In this document: piece after piece, positions 41,545 through 52,664 of the stretch
Position numbering within the stretch: position 1 is the stretch's first letter
Layout of the letters: each line of letters starts with the position of its first letter
From: Marinicella meishanensis
GTDB lineage: Bacteria > Pseudomonadota > Gammaproteobacteria > Xanthomonadales > Marinicellaceae
DNA length: 64,000 bases
Direction: 5' to 3'
Assembly: GCF_019931145.1 (NCBI RefSeq)
Contig: NZ_JAIOUV010000002.1
Coordinates: forward strand, 372,001 to 436,000
Notes under the pieces: generated by a model
The model's input: the letters and a program-made list of their open reading frames with translations, nothing else
Told to the model about the DNA's origin: nothing
The model's database searches: none
Made by a program: the position numbers and the translations under genes

Positions 41545-41955
41545 TTACTCAGGTGGTTGAAGCCAGAACTTCCTCACACTTAGGTGGAAAAGCCAAATCA
41601 CAAACAGGCCGCCAATGCCGGTAGCCAGTATGTCCAACCAATCAAAAGTCAATTGACCAATCAACTGCATGAACTCCCAACCAGTCAGTCCAAGTAAAAC
41701 CACGGATAAGGTGCGTTGGAAATACCGATTGACTCGTCGGTGGCGCTGAGTTGTGTGCAATTGTTTGTGCGGCCATCGAGCCATCATTGCACCAAAACTC
41801 AGCACCACAACCGCCACAAAATTGGGCGCCACACCCACAATCACTGAATCCACTTCAGGCCCATGTTTGCGCCATAAATCAATCGCTGTCAAAGCCACCA
41901 ATCCGGCGAGGGTCAACCATGTCCACGGGGCTTGATGGCGCCACCAATCACACAT
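41545..41955 (-). CDS. Small membrane protein, function unknown
   Basis: A 136-residue protein with about four hydrophobic segments (residues 11-27, 37-58, 82-102 and 108-127) and basic loops. No family is recognised. Its start overlaps the end of the patatin gene by 8 bp, so both are on one transcript. Confidence 0.75.
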   Translation of the reverse strand: MCDWWRHQAPWTWLTLAGLVALTAIDLWRKHGPEVDSVIVGVAPNFVAVVVLSFGAMMARWPHKQLHTTQRHRRVNRYFQRTLSVVLLGLTGWEFMQLIGQLTFDWLDILATGIGGLFVIWLFHLSVRKFWLQPPE

Positions 41956-43084
41956 CGTTGTTCGTCAAAAACGCCTGAATTTCACTGGCTTGGTGCATGG
42001 CGTCTTGGTGCCCTAATTCGATCAGGGCTTGGGTGTAACTGGGTTCGAACAACAGATACGACGGCATGCGCCAATCCTTACCCCAGCCGCCAATCATTTT
42101 CAATAAAGTCTTGACCGGTCCGGGGATGCTGTTGGCATGGGCGGCCGTGAGGTGCCGGACGTCGACACTGGGTTTGATGATCAGGGTTTGCAGCGGTTTC
42201 AAGCCGGTTTCATGCCGGCGGTCTTCTGGGATCAACTGCAAGGTGCGGTTGATGCGGTGCAAACGCGACAGATCGGCCATCAGGGTGTCCATGAAAATGG
42301 TGTCCAACATGTAACCACCCAACTCACCCATGCTGGGATAGGGTCCAGGCTCCTGGGGCACTTCAATCGGACTTTCATCGCGGGTGCCGATGACCAAGAT
42401 GCGGTCGGCACCGAGGTGGATGGCCGGTGACAGGGGCGCGGTCATGCGCAAGCCACCGTCGCCGTAATATTCATTGCCAATCAGCTGCGCCGGAAACAAA
42501 AATGGCAATGCGGTGGAGGCCATGATGTGATCCACCGTGATGTCTTCCCTGAGACCCACGCGGCGCGTGCGGTGCCATGGGATGGCGGCGGCGCTCGCTT
42601 GAAAAAAACACTTGGCCACGGCCGTGTCATAAGACGAGGCGGTGATCGACAAGCCTTCCAGCACGCCCTCATCAATGGCCGGTTGGATTTGGTGCAAGCG
42701 CAATTCGCGTTTGAGCAATTGCGCCAAGGGGGTGTTGTCCAGCAAGGAATCGGGTGGCTTCATCCCAAAACGACCAAACAGCACCGAACCCAGCACTTTG
42801 GCCATGGTTTTGAAGATCTGCCGCCCATCCGTGCGGTACACATCGGGGCAGTGGATGGTGGTCCAAAAATGATGCAAGCGGGCCACCCCATGGCGTTGGT
42901 TCTTGGCGTGGGTGGCCATCACCACGGCATTGATGGCGCCGGCCGAGGTGCCATTGATGATGGGAAAATGAAAGGCCTCGGGCATGATGTCCAAAATGGC
43001 TTGCATCACGCCCACTTGATAAGCCCCACGGGCACCACCACCGGGCAGCATCAACGCGGTTTTTTGTTGCAGCCAATCTGTCAT
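41948..43084 (-). CDS. Patatin-like phospholipase
   Basis: A 378-residue lipid acyl hydrolase. It shows the oxyanion-hole GGGARGAYQVG (residues 15-25), the nucleophile elbow INGTSAGAINAVV (Ser at about 47), and the catalytic Asp in YYGDGGLRMTAP. There is no signal peptide, so it is probably cytoplasmic. It overlaps the next gene downstream. It ends 84 bp past the last gene of the purine cluster and is on the same strand, but a link to it is not evident. Confidence 0.9.
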   Translation of the reverse strand: MTDWLQQKTALMLPGGGARGAYQVGVMQAILDIMPEAFHFPIINGTSAGAINAVVMATHAKNQRHGVARLHHFWTTIHCPDVYRTDGRQIFKTMAKVLGSVLFGRFGMKPPDSLLDNTPLAQLLKRELRLHQIQPAIDEGVLEGLSITASSYDTAVAKCFFQASAAAIPWHRTRRVGLREDITVDHIMASTALPFLFPAQLIGNEYYGDGGLRMTAPLSPAIHLGADRILVIGTRDESPIEVPQEPGPYPSMGELGGYMLDTIFMDTLMADLSRLHRINRTLQLIPEDRRHETGLKPLQTLIIKPSVDVRHLTAAHANSIPGPVKTLLKMIGGWGKDWRMPSYLLFEPSYTQALIELGHQDAMHQASEIQAFLTNNDV

Positions 43085-43168: not shown

Positions 43169-44116
43169 TCAGCGCCTGAATTGTTGCAACACGAATTGAT
43201 AAAAGGCCTGTTTTTGGACCAGGTTCAACAGCACATTGACCGGCCGCCCACCGGCCGTTGTTTCGATGGTGCCTTGCATGAAACCGTCGGTGACGATCGA
43301 CAGGTTCATGACCTCAGGTGTGGCAAAAAATTCCGGGTGCGGGATGAAACAGGTGGTCACCACATCCCACATGTCATAAAACGATTCAGCAGCCACCAAT
43401 TCATAGCTTTGGTAGGCCAGCTTGGAATAAGCAAATTCCGGGGCCTGAATTTTCAACTGGGTCATGAATTCATCGGTGATGGCCGCCTGATCGGTGACAT
43501 CCAATGGAAACATGTAGATCGGAAAGGTGGTGTTGTTGAACACCCAGTCCACCGCAAACGGATCACAAAAGGCATTCCATTCCGCCCGCTTGTTGGCCAT
43601 TTGTGGCGGGATGGTGTTGGGGTCCAAATTGCCCGGCACATCAATGGCCCCTCCCATCCAGATCAAGCGCTCGATGGCTCCTGCCAAATCGGGCTTGGCC
43701 TGCAACACATTGTGCAAGGTGGTCATCGGACAGTTGACCAACAAGGTGATGGTTTCGCCGGCAGCCAAGGCCTGTTGCAACACCTCGGTCATGAAGGCAT
43801 CGCCGTCGGGAAACGGTGGCCACTGGGGGTTGTCCGGCAGGTCACTGAGCACCTCGATTTGCCCTTCTTTGATGCAGTCTTCGCGGTACACCCAGGGAAA
43901 GGGGTTCCACTGCCGGGCGCCACTGAGGGTCAAAGGGTATTGACTTTGGCCAATGTATTGTTGAATTTTGTATTGCGCTTGCATGGCATAGCGATCGATG
44001 CAGTCGGCATTCATGATCACCGAGCCGAGGAAGGTTTTGTCGGCCATGGTGGTCAACAACACAGCGGCCATGAATTCATCAATCGCGGCATCGTGGTTGA
44101 ACAGTATTTTTTCCAT
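43169..44116 (-). CDS. Nucleoside hydrolase, purine-specific type suggested
   Basis: A 315-residue member of the inosine/uridine nucleoside hydrolase family, which splits ribonucleosides to base and ribose. The start at 44116 (MEKILFNHDAAIDEF) follows GGGAGGG. The calcium motif is NHDAAIDEF, so two of the usual four Asp are replaced (by Asn and Glu). Conserved segments are LVNCPMTTLHNVLQ, LIWMGGAIDVPGN and AEWNAFCDPFAVDWVF. The last Asp is preceded by Trp (MWDVVTTC) rather than His, as in purine-preferring enzymes. It is the last gene of the purine cluster, 14 bp after the phosphorylase-like gene. Confidence 0.88.
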   Translation of the reverse strand: MEKILFNHDAAIDEFMAAVLLTTMADKTFLGSVIMNADCIDRYAMQAQYKIQQYIGQSQYPLTLSGARQWNPFPWVYREDCIKEGQIEVLSDLPDNPQWPPFPDGDAFMTEVLQQALAAGETITLLVNCPMTTLHNVLQAKPDLAGAIERLIWMGGAIDVPGNLDPNTIPPQMANKRAEWNAFCDPFAVDWVFNNTTFPIYMFPLDVTDQAAITDEFMTQLKIQAPEFAYSKLAYQSYELVAAESFYDMWDVVTTCFIPHPEFFATPEVMNLSIVTDGFMQGTIETTAGGRPVNVLLNLVQKQAFYQFVLQQFRR

Positions 44117-44130
44117 CGTTGGCCCTCCCA

Positions 44131-45210
44131 TCAATCCATCGCCGCCAACAAGGCCCAAGTCACCAAGGCCCCGTTGTAGCTGGTGTAAAAGCCAAACACG
44201 TCATACACCGCACTGCCCCAACTTTCTTGGGTTTCGGTTGGCAAGGCGGCATTTTGGGCCGGATCGGACACGTTGCGCACGAAGCCAAAAGCCACCCCTT
44301 CGGCTTCACACACACGACCAATGACCGCATCGTCCATCTCAATGACCGCGTAATCGGCGTATTCGCCCGAAGTGGTACCCACCACAAAAGTGGCGGCGGT
44401 CAACAGTGAGGTGTTGCTGGTGGTCAAGTTGCTCAACACCGGCAAGCCTACGGGCAGATCCAGGTCATCAACGTTCAACTCAGCCAGGGCATAATCGGTG
44501 CCATACTTGGCGTTGAATTGGTCTTTGAGCAAGGTCAAATTGGCGGTGGTGGCCGGGATGGTAAACAACAATCGATTGAAATCACTGCCATTGATGATGT
44601 CCCAAGCGGGGCTGTATTGGCTGCGGTAGGTGGGCCAATCTTTGGCTGGCTGTTCGCTGTCATACATGGTGCCGGCATTGACCACATTGACCGCCCCGAT
44701 GTGGTCACCCAGGCGGCAGCCACCGGCGGTGCCAATTGACAGGATCAATTGGGGTTTGACATAGCGGTTGATGCGGTAGATCAGGTCCGCCAGGTATTTT
44801 TCTCCGGGCCAGTCCAAGTGGGTGTTGGACTTGAACAACAGCACTTTTTTGCCATTGATCTCAACCAAGCGGTAATAGCCCCAGTAATCCCAATCTTCAG
44901 AACCCTTTTCTGGCGGCATGTCCAAATCATATTTTTGCCATCCCGACCAACCCCCATGGGTGGAATCACTGTAGGGCATGGCCTGGTCGCTTTGGATGAA
45001 CACGTGTTGCATGGCCGCCCATTCGGCCGCCGCCCAGGTGATGACCACCACATCGGCCTCCGGCATTTTCTCTGGCGGGGTGTCCAATAACTGAGGCGCT
45101 TGGTGTCCGATCAGGCCCCAGTCTATGGCCGGCAAATCAGGCAGGTCTGGGATGTCCGGATACCGACCAGCTGCTGAATGGTGTTGGGCTCTTTTGTCTT
45201 TGTAACTCAT
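44131..45210 (-). CDS. Nucleoside phosphorylase-superfamily protein
   Basis: A 359-residue protein of the PNP/UDP phosphorylase superfamily. LILSIGTAGGCRLGD matches the central strand and glycine loop. IEMDDAVIGRVCEAEGVAFG followed by FVRNVSDPAQN matches the base- and ribose-binding end (the usual motif is EMEG). The N-terminal 40 residues are proline-rich and unlike standard PNP. A role as phosphorylase or nucleosidase on purine nucleosides fits the neighbours. The start has GGGGAG upstream and lies 13 bp after the NH-XDH stop. Confidence 0.82.
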   Translation of the reverse strand: MSYKDKRAQHHSAAGRYPDIPDLPDLPAIDWGLIGHQAPQLLDTPPEKMPEADVVVITWAAAEWAAMQHVFIQSDQAMPYSDSTHGGWSGWQKYDLDMPPEKGSEDWDYWGYYRLVEINGKKVLLFKSNTHLDWPGEKYLADLIYRINRYVKPQLILSIGTAGGCRLGDHIGAVNVVNAGTMYDSEQPAKDWPTYRSQYSPAWDIINGSDFNRLLFTIPATTANLTLLKDQFNAKYGTDYALAELNVDDLDLPVGLPVLSNLTTSNTSLLTAATFVVGTTSGEYADYAVIEMDDAVIGRVCEAEGVAFGFVRNVSDPAQNAALPTETQESWGSAVYDVFGFYTSYNGALVTWALLAAMD

Positions 45211-45223
45211 GGTTTGCTCCCCT

Positions 45224-48200
45224 TTATTTTTTGGTTAATTTCAAATCTTTGATGGCCAACCGACAGGTTGACTGGATGTTGGCCACCGTGGCGGGGGCAT
45301 CCATCTGCACCCACTGTTCATGGCCTTGGTCCTCATAAAAAGACTGGATGGCTTGTTTGATGGCGAAGAACACCGTGTTGGCCAGTACCAAGGGTGGTTC
45401 ACCGATGCCTTTGGATGACTTCACCGCAGCGGCGTCCAGTTTGGGCCCTTTGCGTGCCAAGGAACAACCGCTGTTGTCATAAATTTTGACCCTCAAGTCC
45501 AACGGGATGGATTTGGTGCCCGGGGGTTTGTACTCCCAGGTGTTGGTGGAGGTGATGGCCCCTGCTGGATAACCGGCCCTGGGGGCTTCTTGACGCCCCT
45601 GGTAAGTCATCTCTTCCATCGTCACATATCCGATGCCCTGCACGAAGCCACCTTCGATTTGGCCGATGTCGATCAGTGGATTGAGGCTTTTGCCGATGTC
45701 AAACAGGATGTCACTGCGCAACACCGTGAAGTCGCCGGTCAAGACGTCGATTTCCACTTCACTGGCAGCCACCGCATAGGTGTAATAGAAAAAGGTGTTG
45801 CCGATGGAGTGGTTGATGTCGACCCCAGAATAATTGGGTGCTTTGTAACGCGCTTCGGCGGCCAAGCCCACCCGATTGACATAGGCCAAAGAACAAATCA
45901 GCGGCCACACATCGGACCAATGCTCGCGCCAATTTTTGGTCACCGTTTCCACCTGCATGACCATGTCTTCATCCATTTTGCTGTCATCGAACTTGGAAAA
46001 ATAGACCGTGTATTGTTCCAGGTTTTCGCAGAACTTTTCCAACCGCTTTCGCAGCTTTTTACAGGCCAGGGCCACAGCACCGCCGTTCAAATCCGACCCA
46101 GTTGACGCCGCGGTGGCACTGGCGTCACTGACCACCTGGGTGTCGGTGTCGGACATTTTGATCAGCTCAATGGGGATGTCCAGGGTTTCGGCGGCAATCT
46201 GTGCCATTTTGGTTTGGATGCCTTGCCCCATTTCCACCCCGCCATGTGCCACCAGCACCGAACCGTCGCTGGAATACGCCACCACATAGGCCCCGCCTTG
46301 ATCCAGGGTGCCGCGGGGACCGGAATAGGAAACCCCATATTTCAACGGCATCATGGAAATGCCGCGTTTGCGGTATTGGTTCTCCTGGTTGAACCGTTGG
46401 ATGGCTTGTTGGCGTTGTTCAAACTCGGCATCTTGTTTCAGTTGCTGCCACAATTCCGGCAGTTTGCAATACTTCAAGCCTTCCATATAGGGCGTGAAGT
46501 CATATGAAGTGGTGCTGTATTGCTTTAACGAGATCATGTCATCCAGATTGGCAAAGGTGCCGGTGGGGTCATGCGCTGCCACGGCCTTGGCAAAAGCCGC
46601 TTCGTCCACAAAATGTTGGTTCAACAACGGCCGCAAACCGGCCAAGGCCGCATCAGCCACTTGCAAGCGCGCCAAAGTACCCAGGGTTTGTTCGGTGATG
46701 GTGAAGCCGGTCCATGCCTCGATGCCGTCTTTGTACAGATTTTTCTCGCGGATGGCTTCCGGCGTGGTGCCCAATTCATAGGCCACATGCTCAATGGCTT
46801 GTTCGGTCAAATTAACCGCCTGGACCAAACCAAAGGTGCGAAAGGCGGTGTTGCTGGCCTTATTGGTCTGACAGATGTTGCCCGACACGCGATAGGTGCC
46901 GATGTTGTAGGCGTTGTCATTGGATTGCAGTGACATGTCCATGATGGGAAAGGACACGTCATAGGTGTTGCCGCCATCTGACTGGTAATCAATGGCAAAA
47001 CCTTTCAAGGTGCCATCTTGGTCATAGGCCACCGAGTAATCCCCTTGGTAGGCATGGCGCTCACCACAGGTGATGAAGTTGGTGTTGCGATCCAAGGCCA
47101 AGCGCACTGGTTTGTTGAGCACCCAGGCCGCCACCGCACAAGCCGTGGAATTGAACCTTGAGCGGGTTTGGCGACCGCCAAAGCCGCCTCCCAATCGGGT
47201 GAGTTTGACCTGCACATTGGCCGCTGGAATGCCCAGCACGCCTGCGGCGGTGTATTGATTGTCGGCGATCACCTGGCTGGCGGTGTGGATGGTGATGCTG
47301 CGATTTTCACCGGGTATGGCCACCGTGTTCATGGTTTCCAGGTAAAAATGATTTTGGTAGCCGGTGCGCCCACGACCCGTAACAACCGGGTAGGTTTTGC
47401 CACCCTCGGTGAACGGCACTTCTGCCGGTGCCGCCAACCAAGACTCATTGCCTCCCGGCCGGGTGATCTCGGGGATGTGGGTCAAGCCCGGATCGGTAGC
47501 TGGGGTTTGTGGAAAGTGGTGTTGTTCTGCCAATGCCTGATCAAAATCACGCCAAGGCTTGGCCTCAAAATGGATGCATTGTTGGCGCACGAAATCGGCC
47601 AGTTCTTTGGCCGCCAACTGATCCTGACAAACGATCAAGCCAATCGGCGCACCGATGCAGGTGACGTGGTCCGGATGGAAAAAGTCATTGGGTTCAATGC
47701 CGGCCGGCACGGTTTGGTCCATGCTCGGCACAAAAATGGGGTCATCGCCGCCCAGCCCCACCCAGTTTTTGCTCGGATCGGGCAGGTCATCGTATTGCAC
47801 ATAAGCGATGAAATCAGGGTGCCAATCCTGCAAAAAGGCGATCAATTCTGCCACCGAAACCCGCTGTCCTTTGACCCCATGGGCGGTGGTCACCGGCAAT
47901 TGGTAATAAAACTGACCAAAGGCCACCAGGCTGTAAACAAAAGCCGCTTCCAAGGTGTCCGGTGGCCGCACCATGTCATGCGTGTAACGGGCTTCACCGG
48001 TGGTTTGTAGAAACGCCGAAAGTTTGATGAAGGGGGCCGATACCGGCAGCTCTTCGGGATAAGAATTGTATTGCTGTTGCCCAGTGGAAACCGGCCGTTG
48101 GTACGTTGTTCCGGCCGACTTGATGCGCGGATTGACCGCCTCGGGCTCGATTTGGTTGGCCACCGACACGGCCATTTTGTAAAACAGGTTCTCGGCCAGT

Positions 48201-50713
48201 GAAGCCCGATAAGCAAATGAGACTTGGCCAATTTCATACGGCCCGGCCGGTCCCACCGGCGGCTCATAGGCGGCCAATTCGGTGGCCAAAGTGGTCATGG
48301 CGTTACTGATGGTGGCTTCATTCCAGGGTTTGCCCAGCAATGATTGTCGGGTTTTGGGCACCGTGATTGGCTGGAATGGTATGCCATAGGTGGTGGCTTC
48401 CAGCGCGTAATCGGCGTGGATGCCGTTGTACACAATGCGGCAATCACTGACCAAGTTTTGCTGGTCGAACTGGACCAAAAATCCGGCATTGACCAAGGCA
48501 TGACAGTCCTCATTGCGGCGGCGGATTTTGTAGCTGTTGACACAGGTATTCGGTGCGGTGAATGGGATGAAGAAAGATTCATAAATCGCCCCCGGCGGCA
48601 ATTGGTCTTCGGTGGGCAAATCCAACACCGCATGGGTCTGCTGACCCGCGGGCGAGGACACCGTCACCGTGGCGCCCAAGGTGCCCAGCATCAACACCAC
48701 ATCTGACAAGAAACCCAAATTGGTGCCAATGAACACATTGCCGGCCAAAGTTGCTTCGTTGCGCACTTGGGTGTTGGCCACCACCAACAGGTGGTCATAC
48801 AGGGCTTTGAGACCTGCGGTTTGATCTTGGGAGGCGGTTTTGATGGTTTGTTGGATGACCTCAATCATGCGGGTGATGGTGATGGCCCCACCCAACAGCA
48901 AGCCGTCGTCTTGAACCACCACATGCTGCAGTTCCTTGATGGCGGCGATGTCCACCAGATAAGTGGGGTTCAGCGCGGTTTCGCCATAAATCGGCTGGGT
49001 TTCATAGATGCCCACCGAGGTGTTGCCGCACAACAAACGGAAATTGGGACCAATCGGTCCATGCAGCGCTTTGGTTTGGTACAAAGCCTGCAATGTCACT
49101 GGCCGCTCATAGGTGTAACCGGCTTGGCTGATCAACAATGGCTGCGGCTTCATCATGTATGCCAGAAAGTCGCTGGGCGGAAAAATTTTTTCAAATGGTT
49201 TGATGCGACTGGGCTTAAAATTGGGGTCGATTTTGATCTCGGGTGCCGGCTTGGGTGGTTCATAGTCATCAGCAAACTGCTTGAAGGCTGCCAATATCGG
49301 CCGATAGCCGGTGCAGCGACAGATGTTGCCATCGAAGTTGTCTTCGATTTGTTGTTGGGTCAGGTGTTCATGGTTTTGCCTGAGGGTGAACATGTTCATG
49401 GTGAACCCGGGCGAACAGTAACCACATTGAGAGCCGTTGTTGGCGGCCAATTGGTATTGCACTTCATCGATGCCGTCTTTGACATTGCCAATGCCTTGGG
49501 TGGTGGTGACCATGGCCCCATCCAATCCGGCCAAGGGACGCAGGCAGGCATTGATCGCTTTGTTGACCACTTTGCCCTGGCCCTGGTCATAGCTGGTGAG
49601 CATCACCGTACAGGCGCCACAGCCACCTTGGCCACAGACCAGTTTGGTGCCGGCCTTGTCGACTTCTTGTCGGTGCAAATAGTCAATCAAGCGCAGCTGC
49701 GGCGAGACATCGGTCAAGGTCACCCACTGGCCATCTAAAATGAAGGTGATTTGGTCTTTGGGGGTCATCACCCCATTCAAGGTGTTGAGGAACAGGTCTT
49801 CAAAGGCGGCAGCATTGACATCGAAACAGGCGGTCACCGGATGAGCCGACTCATCGATCAACAGTTGGCCGGAGCGGTCATTATCAGCGGTCACCACCGA
49901 CAAGCTGACCTCCCGATAGACACCCAGTTCTGGGTCGGTCAGAATGGCCGCCGCCATGGGGTCCCAAAAATCAAAATCACCCGATGCAATGAACGGATAG
50001 TCGGCGGTCAGGGCCTGGTACACAAAATCTGCTGAGGCGCTGTTGTGGTGTTGCAGCAGGCGGGTGTAAAAATCGGGTGTGATCGGCGCATGCTGGGTCG
50101 CATCCAAGGGCACCAGGGTCATGGGCACGCCCGATTTGAAGACGATGTCGGCGGCCACCGGATCACAATAGATGTTCCACTCAGCAACATAATTTTTGAT
50201 CTTGGGGTCGGCTGCATTGACATTGCCTGGGGCATCGATGGTGCCACCCATCACCACGATGCGCTTGATGCGCTCAGCCAATTCAGGTGATTGTTGCAAC
50301 AAAGTCCCCAGGTTGGTCATCGGACCAATGGCCAAGATGGTCAGAGGCGCATCGCTGCTGGTCAGCTGTTGGCGCAAAAAGTCCAAGGCATCGGGCACCG
50401 GTGGGTTCGGGTTGTCAGGAATTTTGATGCCAAACAAATCGTCGACCGGTTGGCGGATGCTGGGCGGAAATTGGTGGTCATAGGCCATCGGTTGCTCCAA
50501 CCCAATGGCCACGGGCAATTCTGGCTGGCCGGCCAACTGCACCAAGTTCAAGGCATTGTGCACCCCGGGTTTTAAATGGGCGGCACCGGTGCCAACCACC
50601 GTGATGCCCAGCACCTCAATGTCTGGGTGGTTGAGTAAATAAAGCATGGCCATCCAATCGTCGATGTCGATGTCGCTGTCGATGATGACCTGGGTCTGTT
50701 GATTTCCGCTCAT
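45224..50713 (-). CDS. Nucleoside hydrolase-xanthine dehydrogenase fusion protein
   Basis: A single 1829-residue open frame with no internal stop. Residues 1-312 are a nucleoside hydrolase: calcium site DSDIDIDDW at 12-20, VVMGGTIDAPGN, AEWNIYCDP and Trp250-Asp251. Residues 320-485 are the two 2Fe-2S clusters (Cys360, 365, 368 and 390; then Cys430, 433, 465 and 467). Residues 515-840 form the FAD domain (LLCGNTSVGI, NTQVRNEATLAGN). Residues 895-1810 form the molybdopterin domain: GGGFGGRQTR, FRTFGLVQA and KGIGEPPLVLA with Glu1772. Against bovine XDH, the Arg880 and Glu1261 equivalents are kept, but the Glu802 position is Gln1182. It would release a purine base and oxidise it toward urate. There is no signal peptide. 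Confidence 0.92.
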   Translation of the reverse strand: MSGNQQTQVIIDSDIDIDDWMAMLYLLNHPDIEVLGITVVGTGAAHLKPGVHNALNLVQLAGQPELPVAIGLEQPMAYDHQFPPSIRQPVDDLFGIKIPDNPNPPVPDALDFLRQQLTSSDAPLTILAIGPMTNLGTLLQQSPELAERIKRIVVMGGTIDAPGNVNAADPKIKNYVAEWNIYCDPVAADIVFKSGVPMTLVPLDATQHAPITPDFYTRLLQHHNSASADFVYQALTADYPFIASGDFDFWDPMAAAILTDPELGVYREVSLSVVTADNDRSGQLLIDESAHPVTACFDVNAAAFEDLFLNTLNGVMTPKDQITFILDGQWVTLTDVSPQLRLIDYLHRQEVDKAGTKLVCGQGGCGACTVMLTSYDQGQGKVVNKAINACLRPLAGLDGAMVTTTQGIGNVKDGIDEVQYQLAANNGSQCGYCSPGFTMNMFTLRQNHEHLTQQQIEDNFDGNICRCTGYRPILAAFKQFADDYEPPKPAPEIKIDPNFKPSRIKPFEKIFPPSDFLAYMMKPQPLLISQAGYTYERPVTLQALYQTKALHGPIGPNFRLLCGNTSVGIYETQPIYGETALNPTYLVDIAAIKELQHVVVQDDGLLLGGAITITRMIEVIQQTIKTASQDQTAGLKALYDHLLVVANTQVRNEATLAGNVFIGTNLGFLSDVVLMLGTLGATVTVSSPAGQQTHAVLDLPTEDQLPPGAIYESFFIPFTAPNTCVNSYKIRRRNEDCHALVNAGFLVQFDQQNLVSDCRIVYNGIHADYALEATTYGIPFQPITVPKTRQSLLGKPWNEATISNAMTTLATELAAYEPPVGPAGPYEIGQVSFAYRASLAENLFYKMAVSVANQIEPEAVNPRIKSAGTTYQRPVSTGQQQYNSYPEELPVSAPFIKLSAFLQTTGEARYTHDMVRPPDTLEAAFVYSLVAFGQFYYQLPVTTAHGVKGQRVSVAELIAFLQDWHPDFIAYVQYDDLPDPSKNWVGLGGDDPIFVPSMDQTVPAGIEPNDFFHPDHVTCIGAPIGLIVCQDQLAAKELADFVRQQCIHFEAKPWRDFDQALAEQHHFPQTPATDPGLTHIPEITRPGGNESWLAAPAEVPFTEGGKTYPVVTGRGRTGYQNHFYLETMNTVAIPGENRSITIHTASQVIADNQYTAAGVLGIPAANVQVKLTRLGGGFGGRQTRSRFNSTACAVAAWVLNKPVRLALDRNTNFITCGERHAYQGDYSVAYDQDGTLKGFAIDYQSDGGNTYDVSFPIMDMSLQSNDNAYNIGTYRVSGNICQTNKASNTAFRTFGLVQAVNLTEQAIEHVAYELGTTPEAIREKNLYKDGIEAWTGFTITEQTLGTLARLQVADAALAGLRPLLNQHFVDEAAFAKAVAAHDPTGTFANLDDMISLKQYSTTSYDFTPYMEGLKYCKLPELWQQLKQDAEFEQRQQAIQRFNQENQYRKRGISMMPLKYGVSYSGPRGTLDQGGAYVVAYSSDGSVLVAHGGVEMGQGIQTKMAQIAAETLDIPIELIKMSDTDTQVVSDASATAASTGSDLNGGAVALACKKLRKRLEKFCENLEQYTVYFSKFDDSKMDEDMVMQVETVTKNWREHWSDVWPLICSLAYVNRVGLAAEARYKAPNYSGVDINHSIGNTFFYYTYAVAASEVEIDVLTGDFTVLRSDILFDIGKSLNPLIDIGQIEGGFVQGIGYVTMEEMTYQGRQEAPRAGYPAGAITSTNTWEYKPPGTKSIPLDLRVKIYDNSGCSLARKGPKLDAAAVKSSKGIGEPPLVLANTVFFAIKQAIQSFYEDQGHEQWVQMDAPATVANIQSTCRLAIKDLKLTKK

Positions 50714-50786: not shown

Positions 50787-52238
50787 TCACTGCTGTGTGC
50801 CACTCATGCCACCACGGGCAATGTCGGCTTTATCCAGCAAGTATTCAGTGGACCACTGGCCACCCAATTGCTGAGCTTGGTTGGTATAAAAGTTTTCCAA
50901 ACCAATGGCCACTTGGAAGGAAAAATCGGTGGAATAAGACACCTCGGGGTTCATCGACACCCCGCATTGGGTGTTTTGGAACCATTCCATCCAAATCTCA
51001 CCACCGCCACCCAAAGGCGGCAATTGACCACCGGCAGGTCGGTCAGCCGTGTTGGCCGTCGGTGGAAACATGGTGCGCACCGGTGGGTATTGGGCCGCCA
51101 TGTGACAGCCCATGCAAGACACCGTGCTCAAATCCGCCGGTCCACACAACCGGGAATTCCACCCCAGGTGTTGTGGCGGCAAGGGCTGATCGACAAAAAT
51201 CACGGTTTCTTTCAGGTCTGGATTGACGATGTCTTTCACCGGTTTGGGTGGAAATGGGTTGACCTTGTTGTCTTTGATGTCCGGGTCATTGCCCCACTGC
51301 AGGCCCAAGGGCACCAAATTCATGAATTGGCTTTTTTTGCTGTTCACCGCGCCGTTGTAAACCAGCGTGCCAAACACCCAACCGGTGAAATCATCCGAGC
51401 GGGGATCGCGCACGGCGATGTCCATTTGCAACAAATTCACCGCGCCCACTTTGCGGGTGGACGAACCAAAACTTTCCTGGATATAGGCTTGCCATTGCAT
51501 CGGATTTTGTAATTGAGGCACTTCGGTCACCGGGGCATCGGTCAACAACAACTTGGCGAACACCGAACCAGGGATGAAGCCGCCACCATAGCGTTTGTCC
51601 ATGGCACTGGGATCTGGGTTGTTGGGATCATTCCACATCCGACCGAGGGAATAACTGGCATACTCATTGACCAAAGTGATGGCGTAGATGGTGTGTTCAT
51701 TGGTTTGTTCGGCGGCAAACTGATACGGCACGGCATTGATTTCGGTGATCAAACCGCGAAACCCTTCGGTGCCGCCATTGGGTGGGAAATCTTGCGGCAT
51801 GTGCAACCAAGGCAGATGCACCCACTCACGGATTTTGTTGCCATGGGGATCCCAGGCAATTGGACCGCCACCAAAGGCCGGGATGTTGCCCTCAAAAGAA
51901 TAATCCCGCGCCGCTTCCAAGTACTTCAGTGGTTCCTTTTGAAAATCAATTTTCATGAACTTGGGCCAGTTCTTTTTCGGTGGCACCTCGGTGGCGTAAT
52001 TGGTTTTCAGCCTGAAAATGGGTAAATAATTGGGGTTGGGCGTTTGCGTGTTGGGCAGGTACTTGGCGTATTTTTGGTTGTATGTGGCAGGGTCCACCAT
52101 CCAATAAAAATCAGGAAAGCCCATGCCTTGGGTTTTCTTGTGCTTGGGCCCCGGCTCGGCGCTGGCTGATAGGCCCAATAAAAGACCAAGAATCAAAGTG
52201 ATCAGTTGCTTACTGCTGAGGTGTCTGGATGTTTGCAT
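50787..52238 (-). CDS. Exported c-type cytochrome-like protein heading the purine cluster
   Basis: A 483-residue protein. The start at 52238 (MQTSRHLSSKQLITLILGLL) gives a signal peptide ending near LSASAEPG and follows GGAG. It has one haem c motif (CMGCHMAA near residue 385) and many Trp and Pro; WMVDPATYNQKYAKYLP near the N-terminus is distinctive. I do not recognise a named family. It lies 73 bp before the fusion gene on the same strand. It could serve as an electron acceptor or in a separate periplasmic reaction, but the fusion protein looks cytoplasmic. Confidence 0.82.
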   Translation of the reverse strand: MQTSRHLSSKQLITLILGLLLGLSASAEPGPKHKKTQGMGFPDFYWMVDPATYNQKYAKYLPNTQTPNPNYLPIFRLKTNYATEVPPKKNWPKFMKIDFQKEPLKYLEAARDYSFEGNIPAFGGGPIAWDPHGNKIREWVHLPWLHMPQDFPPNGGTEGFRGLITEINAVPYQFAAEQTNEHTIYAITLVNEYASYSLGRMWNDPNNPDPSAMDKRYGGGFIPGSVFAKLLLTDAPVTEVPQLQNPMQWQAYIQESFGSSTRKVGAVNLLQMDIAVRDPRSDDFTGWVFGTLVYNGAVNSKKSQFMNLVPLGLQWGNDPDIKDNKVNPFPPKPVKDIVNPDLKETVIFVDQPLPPQHLGWNSRLCGPADLSTVSCMGCHMAAQYPPVRTMFPPTANTADRPAGGQLPPLGGGGEIWMEWFQNTQCGVSMNPEVSYSTDFSFQVAIGLENFYTNQAQQLGGQWSTEYLLDKADIARGGMSGTQQ

Positions 52239-52664
52239 GATGTCGGCTCCGAAAAATTGATGAGAAAAAACTGTTTGTGTACAGATTTTTTGCGTGAGCA
52301 GTCGCCGAGAAGACATGCCGAATAGACATGGTGATCATGTGGGTGGTAAGAATCAGTTTTGACACAGGTATTTAACACACCTGAACTCCCCCTGGCTGAT
52401 TGCTGAATGCAATGTCAATCACCAAAGAGGTGCCGCCATGGTCGTTTGACCAGCGACCGCCGTGATTCACATTACCCCGGTACAAAGGTTGGATGTCGTT
52501 GAATTTTGATGTTTGTGATCCGCCCTTTTCCCCTTTTCATATTTGCACCGAGGAGGCATTTTGTCAATATATTTTGTACATTAATGGCCGGAATAATTCA
52601 TCAATCAGCCTGATTTATTTTGTGAACATTCGCACGGATTGGAGCCCTGGCCAGAGGCTCGGAT
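52239..52664. other. Intergenic region upstream of the purine cluster
   Basis: A 426-bp gap without a convincing gene, more AT-rich in parts than the flanking genes. It should contain the promoter of the purine cluster on the minus strand. I found only short imperfect inverted repeats, such as CAGGT with ACCTG at 52364-52383, and no confident promoter. Confidence 0.4.

Follow-up and report, generated by a model that had tools for sequence, protein, structure and literature searches.

A nucleoside hydrolase (NH) and a single-chain enzyme of the xanthine oxidase family are joined on one polypeptide in Marinicella meishanensis, and this fusion is real, conserved and rare, occurring in four genomes from two phyla. 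On balance, the fusion is probably a bifunctional enzyme that would convert a nucleoside into an oxidised base, with a substrate that differs from canonical xanthine; the two activities, the succession in which they act and the base concerned are predicted here from sequence.

The fusion gene is located on the minus strand at positions 45224-50713 of the window, i.e. the whole analysed stretch of 64,000 nucleotides (contig NZ_JAIOUV010000002.1, positions 372,001 to 436,000), and forms one frame of 1829 codons with an ATG start, open throughout as the initial annotation had described it; GC3 is even along this frame (0.63-0.71 in ten blocks). The N-terminal NH domain (about residues 1-313; 49775-50713, minus strand like all parts of the gene given below) is matched by Pfam IU_nuc_hydro at residues 9-305 (E 5.3e-62, 210.6 bits vs. 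a curated cut-off of 34.2) as well as by IunH/RihA-type PDB chains (from E 1.4e-32), and is followed by a linker (about residues 314-321; 49751-49774) delimited by alignment of the fusions with unfused genes. Two 2Fe-2S domains (about residues 322-485; 49259-49750) are recognized as Fer2 at residues 326-390 and Fer2_2 at 404-478, the FAD domain (residues 533-848; 48170-49117) as FAD_binding_5 at 533-718 and CO_deh_flav_C at 727-848, and the molybdopterin domains (about residues 890-1829; 45227-48046) as MoCoBD_1 at 1110-1326 and MoCoBD_2 at 1425-1737, with Ald_Xan_dh_C at residues 1006-1043 staying under its cut-off (24.4 vs. 31.3 bits). Behind the NH, these Pfam matches succeed one another as they do in single-chain xanthine dehydrogenase (XDH), which bears out the architecture initially proposed. 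The eight cluster cysteines (C360, C365, C368, C390, C430, C433, C465 and C467) and the GEPP glutamate E1772 (45398-45400), the predicted catalytic base, are all present, again as annotated, and are invariant across the four fusions. With two 2Fe-2S domains, FAD and molybdenum cofactor domains and the GEPP glutamate, the protein carries the features of the xanthine oxidase family. Its best matches among solved structures (phmmer) are rat and bovine XDHs (best E 3.7e-192), and the similarity to PDB chains is 645 bits for XDH vs. 530 bits for aldehyde oxidase. In NCBIfam, the protein scores below the cut-offs of xdhA (290.1 vs. 467) and xdhB (512 vs. 849.5), and its top bit score, 568.2 for mam_aldehyde_ox, is yet far under the cut-off of 1912.3. 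Domain order, cofactor domains and GEPP motif are shared with the eukaryotic single-chain XDHs (rat 1wyg, bovine 1fo4), while the N-terminal NH and some 75 additional residues inserted at 1330-1405 set the fusion apart from them.

Beyond the window, three full-length fusions were found, all three being the relatives among 18 stretches retrieved with six exact peptide patterns from a collection of 84,980 species; as a match requires an exact short peptide, this count is a lower bound. Two of them (L028, 1851 amino acids; L030, 1858 amino acids) derive from metagenome-assembled genomes of uncultured Gammaproteobacteria and show 70% identity in the best segment, and the third (L029, 55% identity) belongs to Sulfidibacter corallicola M133 of the Acidobacteriota; internal stops are absent from all three. 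L028 and L030 were binned from the same sequencing run (SRR3580189) and are hence not mutually independent, so that the four fusions represent at least three separate assemblies. These assemblies, which span two phyla and include the complete Sulfidibacter genome with a depth of 236x PacBio and 73x Illumina given in a passage of its genome paper (PMC8841776), rule out the assembly artefact that the initial annotation had named as a possible refutation; separate genes do exist, in the genomes G721 and G1143. In a search with the whole protein through 101 genomes (the own genome and relatives), the own genome gave the only full-length match among the matches listed. For a junction survey, a profile of the NH-to-FeS junction was applied at E <= 1e-40, and a genome was counted if its match spanned the junction in one open frame. 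Across genome sets which overlap, and several of which scored only each genome's best candidates, the junction was spanned in 1 of 369 genomes of the class (the own genome; any match in 7), 1 of 398 of the phylum (again the own; any match in 6), 1 of 297 of the Sulfidibacter phylum (Sulfidibacter itself; any match in 4), none of 19 of the order of G721 (any match in 2, both unfused pairs), 1 of 293 of the order of G465 (G465 itself; any match in 7) and 1 of 93 of the class of G466 (G466 itself). A plasmid-borne fusion was also looked for and rejected, with none of 1448 matching plasmid records covering at least 80% of the query in one place. In line with the earlier statement that no described enzyme of such layout was known to its author, a published NH-oxidase fusion was not encountered in the titles and abstract openings of the open-licence papers listed, and the words "xanthine" and "nucleoside" are both absent from the main text of the Sulfidibacter genome paper (PMC8841776).

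In the two genomes with separate genes, both parts are encoded side by side. A 323-amino acid NH gene is followed by a 1347-amino acid single-chain oxidase gene with an ATGA overlap of 4 bases in G721, while the NH gene of G1143 ends with TAA and the ATG of the oxidase gene follows after 9 bases containing GGAG, all in one frame with a single stop. These adjacent unfused genes support one shared pathway for both parts, and the fusion would have arisen through loss of the stop codon between two such genes. In a midpoint-rooted tree of the Mo domain (16 rows), the four fusions cluster together (100/100), the operon oxidases of G721 and G1143 make up a second group and three NH-less single-chain oxidases (G017, G726 and Methylobacterium indicum pVL1_1) a third one, and these three groups together stand apart from 7 canonical XdhB sequences. 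Unlike the fusions, the NH-less oxidases lack an NH match in the examined surrounding stretches, where the separate NH of the window operon (NH2, see below) served as query. The Methylobacterium oxidase (L038:7947-12206) is encoded on a conjugative plasmid. The corresponding tree of NH domains (14 rows) does not resolve a clade of the four fused ones, which come together in 22% of bootstrap trees. A transfer of the fusion between phyla is possible.

The oxidase part had initially been regarded as a complete XDH, which is valid for its domains but not for the residues gripping the substrate. With the rat XDH alignment as ruler, Q1182 (47168-47170) occupies the position of E802 and M1260 (46934-46936) that of R880 in mammalian XDH. 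All four fusions carry Q at the E802 position, and at the R880 position Sulfidibacter has L and the other three have M, in contrast to the eukaryotic enzymes; the equivalents of Q767 and F914, likewise found in eukaryotic XDH, and of E1261 are retained in all four. In canonical XdhB, E and R are kept in all 15 readable loci including that of the own genome, four of 19 loci (L013, L022, L023 and L025) having been dropped because of a wrong longest frame; 7 of the 15 also served in the tree of the Mo domain, and 8 and 1 canonical rows in two further pocket and neighbour comparisons. The unfused oxidases of G721 and G1143 display Q and L at these positions, and the NH-less oxidases T and C (3/3). 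Since E802 and R880 are both replaced, the fusion is, by that test, an enzyme of the xanthine oxidase family outside XDH proper. According to the parts of PMC3624778 consulted here, both residues hydrogen-bond the purine and exchanges of either reduce activity, with an arginine exchange in Aspergillus nidulans abolishing xanthine hydroxylation but sparing that of hypoxanthine. Similarly, passages of PMC2671166 describe that the E232V/R310M exchange made R. capsulatus XDH inactive on purines but active on aldehydes and that the two positions are occupied by V and M (M884) in mouse AOX1, along with the caution that these residues alone do not fix substrate specificity.

These data bear directly on the alternative in which the enzyme would cleave inosine, xanthosine or guanosine and hand the resulting hypoxanthine or xanthine internally to an ordinary XDH site, yielding urate. 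Such a route would be compatible with the full set of domains in single-chain order, with the GEPP motif, with a Trp preceding the last Asp of the NH as in purine-specific NHs and with the hypoxanthine oxidation spared in the A. nidulans variant. It is nonetheless unlikely, given that E802 and R880 are replaced in 4/4 fusions and kept in 15/15 canonical XdhB, that both xdh models of NCBIfam score under cut-off, that R. capsulatus XDH lost its purine activity by exchange of the same residues, and that the own genome holds a separate canonical XdhAB elsewhere with XdhC adjacent, rendering the fusion dispensable for ordinary xanthine oxidation. Compared with the bifunctional enzyme acting on another substrate, urate formation with channelling is much the weaker reading because the two defining residues fail and because an AlphaFold model of residues 1-485 built with 4 sequences (mean pLDDT 41.5) is too poor to indicate the distance between the sites. 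Of the sequential activities claimed at the outset, a shared pathway is supported by the true fusion and the adjacent unfused genes, whereas the assignment to xanthine or hypoxanthine is not supported, given the replaced pocket residues.

In the window, the fusion is followed after 13 bases by a second operon gene (44131-45210, minus strand) and then by NH2, a second NH (43169-44131, minus strand; the open reading frame opens at 44158). The second gene weakly resembles MTA/SAH nucleosidases, and its assignment to this family is weak: PNP_UDP_1 reaches 19.6 bits (cut-off 25.1), the best PDB match has E 0.046, and the Sulfidibacter copy gives no Pfam match. Its product is 54% identical to that of the gene directly upstream of the Sulfidibacter fusion, and the gene is present in 2 of 7 genomes searched and adjoins 2 of the 4 fusions. 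NH2 has an altered fingerprint with N for the first Asp and E for the last one, and an NH with 53-54% identity to it is encoded on the opposite strand beside both unfused pairs; a D-x-A-x-D-E motif is common to its relatives in G721, G465 and G467. A group of NH2-type proteins lacking the first fingerprint Asp is encoded at 43169-44131 of the window, L060:10668-11615, L077:7379-8362 and L078:2091-3074, and proteins of this type are possibly non-catalytic partners. Directly upstream of the fusions L030 and L028, a gene combining a SLOG (LOG-like) domain with ribose-5-phosphate isomerase A (RpiA) was observed (L030:8062-9885; L028:1608-3418), which is a single gene in L030 and split into two overlapping frames in L028. 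Past the window operon and on the same strand, 41948-43084 encodes a patatin-like protein that resembles phospholipase effectors of the PADLOC models (best E 2.1e-13). A defence-system reading of the locus was rejected, with no PADLOC model matching the fusion, the two genes that follow it in the operon or the haem protein described below.

The NH domain of the window fusion carries the fingerprint aspartates D12, D14, D18 and D19 in the motif DSDIDIDD (50657-50680), corresponding to the DxDxxxDD described in PMC8910321, and the last Ca-ligand Asp, D251, which is invariant in all 9 aligned NHs and is preceded by W250 (49961-49966). In fold family, fingerprint and distal Asp, it thus resembles group I/II nucleoside N-ribohydrolases (RihA/RihC, trypanosome IAG-NH). 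According to the group definitions in PMC8910321, as far as this source was consulted, the residue preceding the distal Asp is Trp in the purine-specific group II and Cys in group III. Of the two group II tryptophans, W250 is present while the second one in the beta3-alpha3 loop is absent (the only Trp within residues 1-320 being 20, 179 and 250), a comparison which relies on the description in PMC8910321 instead of a residue-by-residue alignment with trypanosome IAG-NH. Known NHs further differ in not being fused to an oxidase and in lacking the roughly 8 extra residues that precede the AEWN motif in 3 of the 4 fusions. A 115-residue stretch compared with the PDB matched a single chain, 2c40 (E 0.0021). 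The complete DxDxxxDD is present in the NHs of the window, Sulfidibacter, G721 and G1143 and incomplete in those of L028 and L030, where N and G replace the third and fourth Asp and Cys replaces the Trp. Between L028 and L030, Nei-Gojobori dN/dS values of 0.151 (NH), 0.020 (FeS), 0.095 (FAD) and 0.036 (Mo) are well under 1, so all domains are constrained, the NH less so than the Mo domain. Owing to the two missing aspartates, the paired activity is not general unless another NH provides it; an intact separate NH is encoded past the SLOG/RpiA gene in L028 and on another contig in the L030 genome.

Based on these two fusions and their intact separate NHs, the NH domain could be regarded as mainly structural, dimerizing or regulatory, with catalysis left to a separate NH, in analogy to plant NSH1/NSH2, where NSH2 is described in part of PMC9464200 as active only together with NSH1. 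The window would then display the inverse pattern, with the fused NH apparently intact and the separate NH2 altered. We consider such a role improbable, however, as the fingerprint aspartates are complete in the fused or coupled NHs of the other four genomes named above, and as NH2 as query (E 1e-10) detected only the fusion and no separate NH in Sulfidibacter.

Ribose is mostly cyclic, and we know of no member of the xanthine oxidase family that oxidizes it. Slightly less probable still is a Mo domain of the aldehyde-oxidase type oxidizing an aldehyde, possibly the ribose that the NH sets free, instead of the base: M at the R880 position recalls M884 of mouse AOX1, according to the portion of PMC2671166 consulted, AOX1 likewise being a single chain, and mam_aldehyde_ox yields the highest NCBIfam bit score, though one far under its cut-off, but the E802 position holds Q instead of the V of AOX1 and the PDB similarity to aldehyde oxidase is lower than that to XDH. 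Since the Mo pocket agrees with AOX1 at one of the two positions, non-purine substrates are nevertheless conceivable.

Upstream of the fusion, a gene at 50787-52316 (minus strand; its true start is possibly internal) encodes a protein in which a single CxxCH haem-binding motif occurs. Relatives of this protein are encoded near the NH-less oxidases of G017 (48% identity), Methylobacterium (26%) and G726 (28%), a feature that these oxidases share with the window, and were not found in the examined surroundings of the remaining three fusions and of both unfused pairs. Without a Pfam match, this family comprises 50787-52316 of the window, L051:3439-4998, L038:6320-7804 and L061:8290-9753. A further CxxCH protein, encoded near the unfused genes of G1143 (L076:15132-16646), shows no meaningful resemblance to the CxxCH protein of the window (E 0.50). 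As a matter of speculation, the CxxCH protein is a candidate electron acceptor for single-chain oxidases. Near the G017 oxidase, DNase II and an amidohydrolase are encoded, and multicopper-oxidase-like genes lie directly downstream of the G726 oxidase (L061:14054-15766) and of the Sulfidibacter fusion (L029:15592-22482, weak match). With five neighbour queries, no gene was matched near all four fusions, the stretches examined for L028 and L030 reaching only a short way on one side.

For the bifunctional enzyme favoured here, the NH domain would hydrolyze a nucleoside into ribose and free base, a purine-type base being suggested by the Trp before the last Ca ligand. The Mo/2Fe-2S/FAD part would then hydroxylate the released base with the GEPP glutamate as putative catalytic base, and electrons would travel via the 2Fe-2S clusters to FAD; their onward transfer to the c-type haem protein is speculation from the gene neighbourhood. 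With Q and M/L standing at the E802 and R880 positions, the base may be bound differently or may not be (hypo)xanthine. Domain order, catalytic residues, conservation in four genomes, coupled unfused genes and the 100/100 oxidase group all favour this explanation, and neighbours resembling nucleoside-breakdown genes (the nucleosidase-like gene, NH2, the SLOG/RpiA gene and the DNase II near G017) fit it. The dN/dS values well under 1 in every domain speak for it as well. The loss of NH aspartates in L028 and L030 together with the weaker constraint on their NH domains, the agreement of the Mo pocket with AOX1 at one position, the NH domains not forming one group and the missing common neighbour weigh against it. 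A more far-reaching proposal, which we put forward tentatively and consider rather doubtful as a whole, is that of a new two-step class in at least two phyla, in which a nucleoside other than that of (hypo)xanthine would be cut, its base transferred locally and hydroxylated and, in some lineages, the electrons passed to a c-type haem protein, the fusion having originated by stop-codon loss.

With this fusion, two families acting in sequence in purine breakdown are found on one chain, and their coupled unfused genes are visible elsewhere. Substitution of the purine-gripping residues throughout the group points to a base or nucleoside substrate yet to be assigned, and the fusion makes substrate transfer from a nucleosidase to a molybdenum hydroxylase directly accessible to testing.
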